Assembly (NCBI RefSeq): GCF_000412185.1
Contig: NZ_ASJA01000003.1
Span: 124,001 to 188,000, forward strand
Length of the DNA stretch: 64,000 nt
DNA from: Euryhalocaulis caribicus
GTDB taxonomy: Bacteria; Pseudomonadota; Alphaproteobacteria; Caulobacterales; Maricaulaceae
Reading direction: 5' to 3'
A program made the position numbers and the translations under genes. Of the stretch, positions 21,698 to 58,419 are shown in pieces. Numbering within the stretch: the first letter of the stretch is position 1; each line of letters begins with the position of its first letter. A model generated the notes under the pieces. The model searched no databases and was not told the origin of the DNA. It worked only from the letters and a program-made list of their open reading frames with translations.

Positions 21698-21709
21698 CCC
21701 GGCAAGAAC
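21698..21709. promoter_or_regulatory. FlbD-site-like element 1 (CCCGGCAAGAAC)
   Basis: First of three copies of CCCGGCAAGAA in the flgK-fliK gap, 18 bases upstream of the flgK start codon. FlbD binds ftr elements near sigma-54 flagellar promoters in Caulobacter. I infer the identity from repetition and position, not from an exact consensus match. Confidence 0.4.
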
Positions 21710-21992: not shown

Positions 21993-22008
21993 TGGCTTGC
22001 TCCTTGCT
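21993..22008 (+). promoter_or_regulatory. Sigma-54 (-24/-12) promoter for fliK-flgD-flgE
   Basis: TGGCTTG-CTCC-TTGCT matches about 10 of 12 positions of the sigma-54 consensus TGGCACG-N4-TTGCW, with correct GG-to-GC spacing. The predicted start is near 22019, leaving a leader of about 50 bases to the fliK ATG. It fits the class III flagellar genes driven by sigma-54 and FlbD, whose gene is at 60495-61859. Confidence 0.75.
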
Positions 22009-22071: not shown

Positions 22072-23967
22072 ATGGACGCAGCCAATCTCCTGAATCTGGT
22101 TTTCGCCGGCGCGACGGGGGGCTCCGCCTCCACAGGCAAGACTGGCGGAAAGAACGCCAGCCTGTTCTCCTCCATGCTGTCCAATGCGGGATCCGCGGCG
22201 ACCGGCGAGGCGGGCGCGGGCAAAGCCAATTATAATGGCGGCCTGGCGCGCACCCTCAAAGCCGCCGCTTCCACGGGCGCGGGCGCGTCTTCCGAAAGCG
22301 GCAAGGCCGGTTCGTCTGGCGGCGGCGCTGAAACCACCGGCGCTGAAACTGAAGACGCCGCCGCGGCGGTCGCCACCAATCCCGAGGCCGCCGCTGCCTC
22401 GGCGCCGGGCTATCAGCTTCTGTCCGATGAAGAGCTGGCCGAGCGCGCCGCGGCCCAGGCCGGGCACCAGGAAACCCTGAACACCCTGATGGGTCTGCGC
22501 TGGTCGAAGACATTCGTGCGCGGCAACACCGAAATGGGCGATTTCCGCGGCACGGCGGGCGACCCCATGCGCCTGAACAGCTTCGCCCACAAACTGATGA
22601 ACAATATGGCCGCGCGTGAAGCGCATCAGGCGGAAGCCGCCGCGCGCCGCGCCCTGTTCGCCAATGTCACGATCTCGCCCGACGGCGCGCAGCCTAATTA
22701 TAATGGCGGCTCCCCGACCGGCGGGGATATCACCGTGAAGCCGCCCGCGACGGGCGACACCACGCCCTCCCTGCTGCCCGTTCCGGATGAACAGCCCGGC
22801 GTTGTCCCGGTCACAGACCCCAAAACCGGCGCGGTGATCGGCAACCCGACAGACCGTGCGGCGCTGCCGGTCCCGGGCGCCCTGACTGAAGGCGCTGCCG
22901 CACAGTTTGCGCGCAATATAGAATCCCGCTTTGGCAGCCGCGCGGGCCGGACCGCGCCGGACGCTGTCGCTGTCAAGGCTGACCCGTCCGCCGCCAATGC
23001 ACAAACGGCGGCCGGGGCGGGGAAATCCGCAACCGCTCAGACCGCGGCGCAATCCGCCCCGCAGTCGAACGGAGAGTCGTCAAGAACGTTGGCCCAGGCG
23101 GCGGCCGCCGCGGCCGGTGACGCTGATGCCGGCAAGCTCAATCTTTCCATTCGCCAGAGCGCGACGGGCGCGGCTTCCGCCACGCCGGGCGCCCAGCTGG
23201 CCGCCGCCCACGCCGCTGCGAACGCGCAACGCGCGGGCGGTCAGTCCGCCGGCGCCAATCGCGGCGCGGAAACAGGCGCGCCCCAGACGGCAGCGGCCTC
23301 CGCGCCGTCTGCAACAACTCCCGGCGCCGTGGCCCCTGTCATGGAAACCGCCGTCGCGGCCGCCGCGATGAATGAAAAGCTGGGTGACGGCGGTCAGATG
23401 GCCGACCCCGAAGGCGATTGGGCGATGGACACGATGAATCGCGCCGCCGATGGCGCCCGCGCCGATCGCAGCGCCGCCACGCAACAGGCCCAGACCCGCC
23501 CGGGTCCGCATGTCGACGCGGCGGCCGTGGCGCGCATGGCCAAGGATATTGCGCGGCAGGCCAATAATGGCTCCCGCCGCTTCGAGATCCGTATGGACCC
23601 GCCGGAGTTGGGCAAGGTCGAGGTGCGGCTGGAAATCGGCGCCGACAAGAAAGCCCATGCCATTCTGCTGGCCGAGCGCCCCGAAACCCTCACCGATCTG
23701 AAACAGGCCGCCCGCGCGCTGGAGCGCGCCCTGGCCGATTCCGGTCTGGATTTGCAGCAGGACAGCCTGCAGTTCGGCCTGCGTCAGGATAATGCCGGCG
23801 GACAATTCGGATCGCAGCGGCAGGGCGGCGGATCGAACGCCCCGGCCATCGCCTCGGCTGATGGCGCGGCCGAGGCCACAGCCCGGATCGAAACCCCCGT
23901 CGAGCGCAGCGTGGACGCCTTTGGCTTCCGCCTTGCCGCCCGCGGCGGCATGAGCGTCAGGATTTAA
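22072..23967 (+). CDS. fliK: Flagellar hook-length control protein FliK
   Basis: FliK measures hook length and switches export from hook to filament proteins. From the ATG at 22072 it has 631 residues; an earlier in-frame start at 21985 lies upstream of the sigma-54 promoter's predicted start and is rejected. The first ~430 residues are Ala/Gly/Ser/Thr-rich and disordered-looking, as expected for the ruler part, with the short motif N-Y-N-G-G twice (about residues 49 and 209). The C-terminal Flg_hook domain (~500-600) includes F-E-I-R-M-D-P-P-E-L-G-K-V-E-V-R-L-E-I and L-A-D-S-G-L-D-L-Q-Q-D. It is followed by flgD after 10 bases. Confidence 0.92.
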   Translation: MDAANLLNLVFAGATGGSASTGKTGGKNASLFSSMLSNAGSAATGEAGAGKANYNGGLARTLKAAASTGAGASSESGKAGSSGGGAETTGAETEDAAAAVATNPEAAAASAPGYQLLSDEELAERAAAQAGHQETLNTLMGLRWSKTFVRGNTEMGDFRGTAGDPMRLNSFAHKLMNNMAAREAHQAEAAARRALFANVTISPDGAQPNYNGGSPTGGDITVKPPATGDTTPSLLPVPDEQPGVVPVTDPKTGAVIGNPTDRAALPVPGALTEGAAAQFARNIESRFGSRAGRTAPDAVAVKADPSAANAQTAAGAGKSATAQTAAQSAPQSNGESSRTLAQAAAAAAGDADAGKLNLSIRQSATGAASATPGAQLAAAHAAANAQRAGGQSAGANRGAETGAPQTAAASAPSATTPGAVAPVMETAVAAAAMNEKLGDGGQMADPEGDWAMDTMNRAADGARADRSAATQQAQTRPGPHVDAAAVARMAKDIARQANNGSRRFEIRMDPPELGKVEVRLEIGADKKAHAILLAERPETLTDLKQAARALERALADSGLDLQQDSLQFGLRQDNAGGQFGSQRQGGGSNAPAIASADGAAEATARIETPVERSVDAFGFRLAARGGMSVRI

Positions 23968-23977
23968 GGAGGCCCCC

Positions 23978-24664
23978 ATGGATATCGGCGGCATCGCATC
24001 ACAGGGACAGGCGGCGGGCGCCACCAACGCCTCCGCGTCACTGGCCAATAATTTCGAGACTTTCCTGACCCTGCTGACCGAGCAGATGAAGAATCAGGAC
24101 CCGCTCAATCCGCTGGAATCGACCGAGTTCATGACCCAGCTGGTCCAGTTCTCCGGCGTCGAGCAGCAGATCAAGCAGAATGAAAGCCTGGAGACGATGA
24201 TCGGCCTGCAATACGCGGCCGCGTTCGGCTCCACCGCCAGCTATCTGGGCCGCGAGGCGACGGTGTTTTCCAACCAGTCTCCGCTGATCGATGGCCAGGC
24301 GAAATGGTCTTACAACCTGCCGCAGGACGCGGCCGAAAATAAGCTGGTCGTGACCGACGAGAAGGGGCGCGTGGTCTTCGAGACTGAAGGCGCGCTGGAA
24401 TCCGGCGATCACGAATTTGTCTGGGACGGAACCGACAATAACGGGGACCCGCTGGAAGACGGCGTCTACACGATGAAGGTCACCGCCCTGAACGAGGACG
24501 GCGACAAGATTACCGCCAGAACCACCGTTACTGGCCGCGTCACCGGCGCCGATTTCACGGGGGCCGAGCCGGCCCTCCTGATCGGCGACCTTCGTGTCGC
24601 GCTCGGATCGGTCAAGGATTTGCGGGAGGCGCAAGCCCCCGCCACTGAAGACCCGGCCGCCTGA
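23978..24664 (+). CDS. flgD: Flagellar hook capping protein FlgD
   Basis: FlgD is the scaffold cap at the tip of the growing hook. The 228-residue protein has the N-terminal export/cap motif N-F-E-T-F-L-T-L-L-T-E-Q-M-K-N-Q-D-P-L-N-P-L with E-S-T-E-F-M-T-Q-L-V-Q-F-S at about residues 27-62. An Ig-like FlgD domain follows, with F-V-W-D-G-T-D-N-N-G-D-P-L-E-D-G-V-Y-T near residues 147-167. An aaggaggc Shine-Dalgarno precedes the ATG. It is the middle gene of fliK-flgD-flgE. Length and motifs are normal. Confidence 0.96.
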   Translation: MDIGGIASQGQAAGATNASASLANNFETFLTLLTEQMKNQDPLNPLESTEFMTQLVQFSGVEQQIKQNESLETMIGLQYAAAFGSTASYLGREATVFSNQSPLIDGQAKWSYNLPQDAAENKLVVTDEKGRVVFETEGALESGDHEFVWDGTDNNGDPLEDGVYTMKVTALNEDGDKITARTTVTGRVTGADFTGAEPALLIGDLRVALGSVKDLREAQAPATEDPAA

Positions 24665-24670
24665 ATAAAC

Positions 24671-24777
24671 GGCCGGCGCTCCCCATCGGCAAGAACGCCG
24701 GAAACGGGAGCGAAATGAAAACAAAGCGCAAAACGCGCTCCCTCACATAAGGACACAAACAAAGGGAGCACTCTCCA
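24671..24777 (+). promoter_or_regulatory. flgE leader with mutually exclusive hairpins covering the ribosome-binding site
   Basis: Four complementary segments occur in order: A CGCTCCC (24677-24683), B GGGAGCG (24706-24712), C CGCTCCC (24736-24742) and D AGGGAGC (24763-24769). A can pair with B, B with C, and C (GCTCCCT, 24737-24743) with D, seven base pairs each, so the pairings exclude one another. D contains the flgE Shine-Dalgarno (AGGGAG, nine bases before the ATG). Pairing C-D would hide it and pairing B-C would free it. A further stem CCGGCG/CGCCGG (24673-24678/24696-24701) competes with A-B and contains a CGGCAAGAAC element like those upstream of fliK. The layout suggests translational or co-transcriptional control of hook protein. 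Confidence 0.55.
24687..24701. promoter_or_regulatory. Fourth FlbD-site-like element, upstream of flgE
   Basis: CGGCAAGAACGCCGG shares CGGCAAGAAC with the elements near fliK and lies 77 bases before the flgE ATG. I see no sigma-54 promoter between it and flgE, so a role as a DNA site is uncertain. It may instead belong to the RNA structure of the leader. Confidence 0.3.
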
Positions 24778-26130
24778 ATGTCCATCAACTCTGCGCTTCT
24801 CGCCGGAACGACCGGCCTGGCCGCAAACTCCAGCGCCCTGGCCGCGATTTCGGACAATATCGCGAACGTGAACTCGGTCGGCTACAAGCGGACCGACACC
24901 CTGTTCGACTCTCTGTTCCAGGCCGATTCCTCGGCTTCCAGCTCCTATTCCGCGGGCGGCGTCAAATCCACGACGCGCCAGCTGGTGAACACGCAGGGCC
25001 AGCTGACCGCCACGGGCAACAGCTCCGACCTCGCCATTTCCGGCGCCGGCTTCTTCGTGGTCAGCCCGACCGCCTCCACCGGGCAGGCTTCGGACTATTT
25101 GTTCACCCGCGCTGGCTCCTTCAATGTCGATGAAAGCGGCCTGCTGGTGAATTCCTCGGGCTATTATCTGCAAGGCTGGCCGGTGAATCCGGACGGCAGC
25201 GTCACGGCGAACCCGTCCGACCTGACCGCGCTCGAGCCGGTGGATATCGGCTCCATCTCCGGCGTCGCGGAGGCCACCAGCAACGTCAAGATCAACGCCA
25301 ATCTGCGCGCCTCGACAGAGATCAGCGCCGCGGAAGCCACCTATGACGCCACCGCCACGGCCAACAACATGGCCTCCGGCGCCGTGGATCCGGACTTCAC
25401 GCGCACCATCACCGTTTACGACTCCCAGGGCGGTTCGCGCACGCTGAATCTCGCTTTCCTGAAATCCAGCGCCAATCCGAACGAATGGCATGTCGAGGTC
25501 TATTCCGATCCGCCGGGCGACGTGAATGGCGCGCCGCCGTTGGTCGACGGCCAGATCGCGACCGGTATCGTGACGTTCGACGCCAACGGCCAGATCGATG
25601 CGGGGGGAACCACGCTTCCGGCGTCTCTGGACATTCCCTGGGCGGCCTCCACCGGCGTGGAATCGCCCCAGACCGTGGCGCTGAATCTCGGCGGCCCGGG
25701 CGAGACCGGCGGCCTGACCCAGTTCGACAGCCCGTCCGTGCTGGTTTCCACCGCCATTGACGGCTCGGCCTTCAACGATAATCCGTCCATCTCCATCGAT
25801 GACGAAGGCTTCGTCGTGGCGTCCTTCGGCGACGGCGTGGTGCGGAAAGTTTATCAGTTGCCGCTGGCGACCTTCCCGAATCCTAACGGGCTGATCTCCG
25901 AAGTCGGCGGCGCCTACCGCATCTCTGGGGACTCCGGCGACTTCTCCCTGAAGGTGCCCAAGACCGGCGGCGCCGGAATAATCTCTTCGGCGACTCTGGA
26001 GGCGTCGAACGTCGATCTGGCGACCGAATTCGCCAATCTTATCAAGACTCAGCGGGCTTATTCGGCCAGCTCGAAAATCATCACAACCGCCGACGAAATG
26101 CTCGACGAGCTGATCCGGATGAAGCGGTAA
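24778..26130 (+). CDS. flgE: Flagellar hook protein FlgE
   Basis: FlgE is the subunit of the flagellar hook. The 450-residue protein starts M-S-I-N-S-A-L-L-A-G-T-T-G-L and contains the rod/hook signature I-S-D-N-I-A-N-V-N-S-V-G-Y-K-R-T-D-T near residue 23. A FlgE-type central domain follows with L-T-A-T-G-N-S-S-D-L-A-I-S-G-A-G-F-F-V-V. The C-terminus ends with S-N-V-D-L-A-T-E-F-A-N-L-I-K-T-Q-R-A-Y-S-A-S-S-K-I-I, the conserved D1/D0 helix. The 113-base gap after flgD contains the hairpin leader described separately. It is highly expressed in related bacteria and secreted through the flagellar export gate. Confidence 0.96.
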   Translation: MSINSALLAGTTGLAANSSALAAISDNIANVNSVGYKRTDTLFDSLFQADSSASSSYSAGGVKSTTRQLVNTQGQLTATGNSSDLAISGAGFFVVSPTASTGQASDYLFTRAGSFNVDESGLLVNSSGYYLQGWPVNPDGSVTANPSDLTALEPVDIGSISGVAEATSNVKINANLRASTEISAAEATYDATATANNMASGAVDPDFTRTITVYDSQGGSRTLNLAFLKSSANPNEWHVEVYSDPPGDVNGAPPLVDGQIATGIVTFDANGQIDAGGTTLPASLDIPWAASTGVESPQTVALNLGGPGETGGLTQFDSPSVLVSTAIDGSAFNDNPSISIDDEGFVVASFGDGVVRKVYQLPLATFPNPNGLISEVGGAYRISGDSGDFSLKVPKTGGAGIISSATLEASNVDLATEFANLIKTQRAYSASSKIITTADEMLDELIRMKR

Positions 26131-56781: not shown

Positions 56782-58419
56782 GTGAACGGACTGACGGAAT
56801 TTCTCAAGGGACAGGGCGCCATGCGCCTGGCGCTGATTATCGGCGTCACCGCCGGCGTGGCGATCGCGCTGGCGCTGATCATGTCGCGCGCCGGGGGGCA
56901 GGGCGAATCACTGCTCTATGGCGGTCTGGCGGCGCAGGACGCGGCCGCCGTGACCCAGCAGCTGGACGCGGCGGGCATTGAATACCGCCTCGAAAACGGC
57001 GGCTCCTCGATCTATGTCGGGCGCGATTCCGTGGCCAATGCGCGCCTTCTGGTGGCGCAGGAAGGCCCGCTGGGCTCCGGCTCCGTCGGTTACGAGATTT
57101 TCGACGAGACCGACGCGCTGGGCGCCACGCAATTCATCCAGAACATCAACGCCAAGCGCGCCACGGAAGGCGAGCTGGCGCGCACCATCCTGTCGCTGCG
57201 CGGCATCCGTTCCTCCCGCGTGCATCTGGTGATGCCCGAGCGCCGCCTGTTCGAGCGCGAATCGCAGGATCCGACCGCCACCGTGGTCATCGGCCTGGCC
57301 GATTCCTCCATGGGCGCCTCGCACGCCAACACGATCCGAAATCTTGTGGCCACCTCCGTGCCCGGCCTGCAGCCGAACCGCGTGACGGTTGTTGACGAGA
57401 CGGGCCGCACGCTGGCCAACGGCGCGGAGGGAAGCGGCGACGAATATAACGCCATGGCCGTCGCCGATCAGCGCGCCGGGCTGGAAGAGCGCCTGCGCCA
57501 GAAGGCGCTGGACGCGATTGAGCCGATTGTCGGCAATGGCGCGGTCCGGGTTCAGGTTGCCGCCCAGCTGGACATGAACCGCATCACCGAAAACGCCGAG
57601 GTCTATGACCCCGACAGCCAGGTCGTGCTGTCCACCCAGACGGTCGAGGAAACCTCCCAGGATCAGGAAAGCGACCAGCAGCAGGGCGTCACCGTCGCCA
57701 ACAACCTGCCGAACCAGCAGCAGGCCGCCGACGGCCCCACCGCCAGCTCCTCCCGCGAGCGGCTGGAAGAAACGGTCAATTACGAAAACTCCCGCACCAC
57801 CCGCACAGAGGTCCGCGAACCGGGCGCGGTGACGCGCCTTTCGGTCGCCGTGGCGGTGGACGAGCGCCGCGTGGTCGCCGAGGACGGCACGGTCACGTTC
57901 GAAGCGCGCGAGCAGGCGGAGCTGGACCGCATCGCCGCCCTGGCCCGCGCCGCGGTCGGGTTCGAGGAATCGCGCGGCGATGTCCTGGAAATCACCTCGC
58001 TGCCGTTCCAGCACATGGATACGACGATGGGCACGGAAGGGACCGCGCCGGGCCTGTTCTCTTTCTCCAAGAACGACATCATGCGCGCTGCGGAAATCGG
58101 CGTTCTGCTGATCATCGGACTGGCGCTGATCTTCCTGGTCGCGCGTCCGCTGGCCAGCGGCCTGACCTCGCCCATGACCCCGGCGCTGGCGGGCGCCGGC
58201 GCGCAGGGCGCGTTGCCGGGCGCCCAGACCGCGCAGGTCACCGACCAGAGCAGCCAGCCGCGCGCGCTGCCCGGGCCGGAGGATGACGGCGCGCGCATCG
58301 ATATCGACCGCGTGGACGGCAAGCTGAAAGCCTCCACCGTCAAGCAGATCACCGAGATCGTGGAAAACCACCCGGAGGAGTCCCTCTCCATCCTGCGCAC
58401 CTGGATGAATGAGGCCTGA
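56782..58419 (+). CDS. fliF: Flagellar MS-ring protein FliF
   Basis: FliF builds the membrane ring on which the flagellum assembles. The 545-residue protein starts at the GTG at 56782 (an ATG thirteen codons on is possible). A first membrane helix near residues 14-32 ([13 protein letters not shown]) is followed by the YscJ-like domains (L-Q-G-E-x-like G-G-S-S-I-Y-V and [10 protein letters not shown]). A periplasmic loop comes before the second helix at about residues 440-460 ([15 protein letters not shown]). The C-terminal cytoplasmic tail binds FliG. It is the first gene of the fliF operon. Confidence 0.95.

Follow-up and report, generated by a model that had tools for sequence, protein, structure and literature searches.

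The flgE leader and its fold

The window, by which we mean the whole 64,000-nucleotide stretch of the Euryhalocaulis caribicus genome analysed here, carries the gene run fliK-flgD-flgE, with the flgD stop at 24664 and the ATG of flgE at 24778. The gap between these two genes is the flgE leader; its parts are given below with the evidence on which each was placed.

24665..24777, + strand: flgD-flgE gap, the flgE leader (sequence, open reading frames, fold z -3.33)
24677-24683, + strand: arm A, CGCTCCC (sequence)
24677..24712, + strand: A-B hairpin (sequence, minimum-energy fold)
24687-24700, + strand: inner stem of the A-B hairpin, CGGC-AAGAAC-GCCG
24706-24712, + strand: arm B, GGGAGCG (sequence)
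24725..24739, + strand: hairpin X, AGCGC-AAAAC-GCGCT, of the C(ARAAn)G class (sequence, pair counts, energy gap)
24737..24743, + strand: arm C, GCTCCCT, the anti-Shine-Dalgarno; CGCTCCC(T) when read from 24736 (sequence, pair counts across leaders)
24763..24769, + strand: arm D, AGGGAGC, the flgE Shine-Dalgarno, SD (sequence, SD-pairing probability)
24778..26130, + strand: flgE, hook protein, 450 aa (open reading frame, homologues in 51/61 related genomes)

An earlier note on this DNA had described the leader as four segments, A to D, with the logic of an attenuator or riboregulator. The four arms do lie where it placed them, the neighbours A-B, B-C and C-D are each complementary over 7 bases in this genome, and D holds the flgE SD. 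The folding-energy check that it proposed also came out in its favour: the 107-base leader folds at -35.3 kcal/mol, whereas dinucleotide shuffles average -24.1 kcal/mol (sd 3.36; z -3.33), and none of 200 shuffles was as good. A-B and C-D coexist in this minimum-energy fold, and ARAA-loop hairpins equivalent to A-B are found upstream of X in 19 of 44 X-bearing leaders. The GGAG of the flgE SD is also pairable with a CUCC right before the start codon (GGAG-CACU-CUCC, window 24765-24776, + strand), a local occlusion of the SD that can compete with both X and C-D in this genome.

Two competing hairpins at the Shine-Dalgarno

The flgD-flgE gaps of 110 FlgE loci yielded 95 distinct leaders. Most of those from the Maricaulaceae and related genomes retain GCAGAAnGCTCC, followed by a loop of about 12-28 nt and by GGAGC a few nucleotides before the start codon, while the remaining sequence is too diverged for easy alignment. 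Across the relatives, C-D complementarity amounts to 5.35 bases, against 3.64 with shuffled upstream sequence; for B-C, the corresponding values over 34 leaders are 3.62 and 3.75, with 7 bp of B-C complementarity in this genome and its genus mate L002. Since B-C is at chance and C-D is kept, arm B belongs at best to this one genus, and it is the SD-covering hairpin that is conserved. The pairing probability of the SD points the same way, with a mean over 39 leaders of 0.90 with the real upstream sequence and 0.68 with shuffled sequence, so that the idea of a structured leader able to cover the flgE SD holds up. The C-D pairs themselves are invariant throughout the aligned set and, because they never vary, give no covariation evidence; it is the conserved pairing of the SD that argues for a sequestering hairpin. 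The Caulobacteraceae flgE leaders L071, L078, L091 and L098 do not retain the C-D anti-SD hairpin, and their X-like site reads GC-AGCA(A/G)-GC rather than GC-AGAAn-GC; the hook leader of that family may work differently.

Hairpin X, which the earlier note did not list, is the conserved rival of C-D. It takes the form AGC-AGAAn-GCT in most leaders and AGCGC-AAAAC-GCGCT in this genome, with GCGC-AGAA-GCGC in leaders of the Hyphomonadaceae type and GCC-AGAA-GGC in a few. In this genome X and arm C have GCT 24737-24739 in common, and in 37 of 38 leaders the 3' arm of X overlaps the anti-SD arm C by 2-5 bases; full X and full C-D are therefore mutually exclusive. Mutually exclusive folds, as the earlier note had proposed, thus do exist, in the shape of X against C-D, and it is the B-C alternative that is not conserved. 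The covariation that it proposed to test among the four arms is likewise found elsewhere, as compensatory changes in the X-type hairpins. The pairs of X were tallied by script, and MAFFT misaligned leaders having a 4-base loop; the third pair is AT in 21 leaders, CG in 9, GT in 6 and GC in 2, and the second is GC in 36 and CG in 2.

By computed energies, C-D has a median advantage over X of 2.4 kcal/mol across the leaders, and of 2.1 kcal/mol in this genome; on these models the leader looks like a poised switch, with C-D ahead of X by just ~2 kcal/mol. The fragment 24720-24790 of this genome folds with X formed and with the SD paired to the downstream CUCC, and so, in this genome, formation of X by itself does not necessarily make the SD accessible. 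Within the genomes searched, flgE was the one place where a search model combining X and C-D (R1), derived from relatives whose X has the AGAAn form, matched strongly (E below 0.001); it missed the diverged flgE leader of this genome itself.

A hairpin class in flagellin and hook leaders

The class to which X belongs is also found in front of flagellin genes. Among 94 distinct flagellin leaders from this genome and its relatives, hairpins whose loop is C(ARAAn)G or C(AARAAn)G often stand in tandem; 35 leaders carry two or three, and in 31 none was detectable by the criteria of the script. Counting stems of at least 4, there are 93 such hairpins in 13.8 kb of flagellin leader (1.9 in shuffles), 38 in 8.7 kb of flgE leader (0.9 in shuffles) and 9 in the 128 kb of both window strands (5.3 in shuffles), an enrichment of ~95-fold in flagellin and ~65-fold in flgE leaders whose significance the shuffles overstate, because the leader sequences are related by descent. 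When 105 flgE loci were counted, the flgE leaders contained 3.9/kb and the remainder of these loci, on the same strand, 0.06/kb. Nearly all of these hairpins lie on the sense strand, the ratio of sense to antisense being 93:1 in flagellin leaders, 38:0 in flgE leaders and 131:1 in total. The only other hairpin of the class in the window with a stem of at least 5 is GCGCC-AGAA-GGCGC at 57495-57508 (+ strand), possibly a chance occurrence.

Centring the analysis on the loop, with no selection for pairing, gave 102 distinct flagellin sites, in which flank pairs 2-5 are formed in 86/78/74/61% of cases, compared with 40/37/43/43% for shuffled partners; all standard pair types occur. The same test on flgE leaders is positive and weaker than in flagellin leaders, with covariation absent beyond pair 3. 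The argument rests on the covariation, on the bias to one strand and on how widely the hairpins are spread among divergent leaders; together these point to an RNA hairpin whose loop is fixed and whose stems are free to vary. This element, essentially confined to the sense strand, is common to flgE and flagellin leaders.

The two kinds of leader differ in where the SD lies. The last flagellin hairpin often bears the SD in its 3' arm, as in CTTCC-AGAAT-GGAGG, and a CAGAAnGGA-type sequence stands at the SD in 31/94 flagellin leaders; in flgE leaders it is the anti-SD that X bears. Sigma-54 boxes are found ~75 nt before the ATG in 40/94 flagellin leaders, which would place many of the flagellin hairpins within the transcribed leader.

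A candidate reader and the proposed switch

The genome encodes FlbT (G000:C4:43978-44352; PF07378, E 3.3e-43), within a flagellin cluster (L143, G000:C4:36000-48000) where flbT and flaF lie among three flagellin genes. FlbT is present in 51/61 related genomes, and FlgE matches were found in just as many. In Caulobacter crescentus, FlbT reportedly controls flagellin mRNAs through their 5' UTRs (Anderson and Gober, 2000). CsrA (PF02599) was found in 0/26 genomes (this genome and 25 relatives, positive controls included), and was rejected as a reader of the leader. FlbT has been reported to bind a flagellin 5' UTR and to repress translation (PMC3930126), and co-repression of Caulobacter flagellin translation by FlbT and FljJ (Ardissone et al., 2020) is reported in PMC7591256; a review of RNA-binding proteins lists the action of FlbT on flagellin mRNA as unresolved (PMC4347634). 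Because CsrA is absent, flagellin-UTR binding has been reported, FlbT is as widespread as FlgE among the relatives and its gene lies in the flagellin cluster, we infer that FlbT is the leading candidate reader of C(ARAAn)G hairpins, as a putative binder. The earlier note had pointed to FlbT-type control, and this pointer gains support because the hairpin class of X also fills flagellin leaders; FlbT binding itself has the standing of a candidate. In other alphaproteobacterial families, 10 hairpins were found in 40 flagellin leaders from genomes with FlbT and 1 in 20 from those without, a weak association on small numbers. Some flagellin starts in this class-wide set were called automatically, and a few may be wrong.

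In its AlphaFold model (pLDDT 88.5), FlbT shows five short strands and then a bundle of four helices; the helical part resembles many helical bundles, a FliS chaperone among them, without significance. By eye, the N-terminal strand pattern and the motif LREKDI look CsrA-like, and comparisons gave this idea no support: hhalign of FlbT with E. coli CsrA produced no match, the whole model found matches to its helical part only, without significance, in Foldseek and VIA-align, and the N-terminal 50 residues alone gave no meaningful match in fold comparison. We found no solved structure related to FlbT by sequence. This lack of a match is compatible with a CsrA-like fold.

The RNA element itself is well supported, by its conservation, the overlap of X with arm C, the small energy gap and the occurrence of the class in flagellin leaders as well. 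We suggest, at a probability of about 0.45, that the flgD-flgE gap is a translational switch between X and C-D, with FlbT the most likely regulator and activation of flgE as its effect. By default, arm C (GCTCC) would pair with the SD in D and flgE would be poorly translated; X, with its ARAA loop, would take the GCT of arm C and so compete with C-D. A regulator recognising C(ARAAn)G, most likely FlbT, would bind X, often together with another hairpin of this kind further upstream, and by keeping C off the SD would allow flgE to be translated. In flagellin leaders the layout is reversed, the last hairpin often having the SD in its 3' arm, and binding would repress. The flagellin part agrees with the known repression, and activation of flgE is a prediction; FlbT as reader, an effect on translation and activating polarity on flgE are what we infer.

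The sign could also be the opposite, a regulator on the ARAA element keeping flgE off and the SD-covering fold being the bound state. The known repression of flagellins by FlbT (PMC3930126, PMC7591256) and the fact that C-D is the default fold of the flgE leader speak for this; in most leaders, however, full X and C-D use the same bases, so that a hairpin binder would destabilise C-D, and we regard the inverted sign as unlikely. About equally unlikely is a leader that works without any factor, C-D and the upstream hairpins fixing the FlgE:FlgD level, or the gap acting on the processing or stability of the RNA between the two cistrons. The products of flgD and flgE are required in very different amounts, and structured gaps are common in operons, but this reading leaves unexplained why the ARAA loop is conserved, why the hairpins favour one strand and why flagellin genes have matching ones.

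Less probable again is a reading at the level of DNA, in which the repeats centred on ARAA serve as sites for the activator FlbD (ftr elements). In Caulobacter, such elements are known to lie downstream of sigma-54 promoters, and reference titles mention downstream elements ftr2 and ftr3. The A-B loop holds the ftr-like word CGGCAAGAA (24687), which is also present at 21700, 21722 and 21917 in the flgK-fliK intergenic region, next to a sigma-54-like box (21993-22007). It occurs, however, in only 3/95 flgE leaders and 0/94 flagellin leaders, the flgE leaders yielded no sigma-54 box, and DNA sites would account neither for stems that vary with compensation around a fixed loop nor for a 131:1 bias to the sense strand. 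The A-B loop of this genome may be an FlbD site, with ftr a poor fit for the element as a whole. In the divergent flgK-fliK region, where the box reads TGGCN7TTGC, the three copies of the word are probable FlbD (ftr) sites of the hook-operon promoter. A second sigma-54-like box, TGGCTTCCGCCTTGC, lies at 23922-23936 (+ strand) in the 3' end of the fliK-like gene, just upstream of flgD; it could be a promoter of flgDE's own, or chance, ~2 such boxes being expected in the window. The four-arm riboswitch or transcription attenuator, finally, can hardly be right: against the 7-bp complementarities of this genome, and the B-C type match in its genus mate, stand chance-level B-C pairing over the relatives and a scan for terminator-like sites that found no U-run after a hairpin on the + strand of the flgE leader.

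Relation to known systems and possible meaning for hook and filament assembly

As in the FlbT control of flagellin 5' UTRs in Caulobacter crescentus, the element lies in the leader of a flagellar subunit gene, in a genome that encodes FlbT, and the same hairpin class is present in flagellin leaders of this and related genomes; it differs in that its target is the hook gene, not a reported FlbT target in the papers found, and in that the flgE-leader hairpin holds the anti-SD rather than the SD, with FlbT a putative binder. The CsrA-FliW system similarly times a flagellar subunit post-transcriptionally via leader hairpins at the SD, but CsrA reads GGA motifs (PMC4894983), whereas the loop here is ARAA and CsrA is absent. 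The flg-Rhizobiales RNA (Rfam RF01736) is also a candidate cis-regulatory RNA at alphaproteobacterial flagellar genes, of a different structure, and its consensus, in the parts shown, contains no hairpin with an ARAA loop; its covariance model gave no match in the window or in the related leaders scanned, the RNA was not found in this genome, and the single weak hit overlaps the start of an flgF-like gene. No credible Rfam family was found for the flgE or flagellin leaders scanned. Our search of the open literature, outside which most subscription papers fall, turned up no description of a comparable hook-gene leader; the flagellin hairpins may have been published before. The conserved leader element is, we conclude, real, and within the reach of our search it is new for a hook gene. 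It would be a variant of the known FlbT-type control of flagellin leaders, with FlbT as the candidate regulator.

That X-type hairpins occur in both flgE and flagellin leaders points to a single RNA-binding regulator of hook and filament, probably FlbT. A fuller version, which we regard as doubtful, has FlbT recognising the same ARAA hairpin on both kinds of mRNA, hook and flagellin, to opposite effect, as a reciprocal translational switch from hook to filament: until the hook is complete, FlbT would open the hook SD and close the flagellin SDs, and once a flagellin partner of FlbT is secreted the pattern would flip. A fixed loop on covarying stems, in flagellin and hook leaders across the Caulobacterales, provides a precise candidate binding site for FlbT, which makes the question of its action testable and widens its possible regulon to the hook. 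If this is true, the opposite placement of SD and anti-SD means that one assembly signal could switch the hook off and the filament on.
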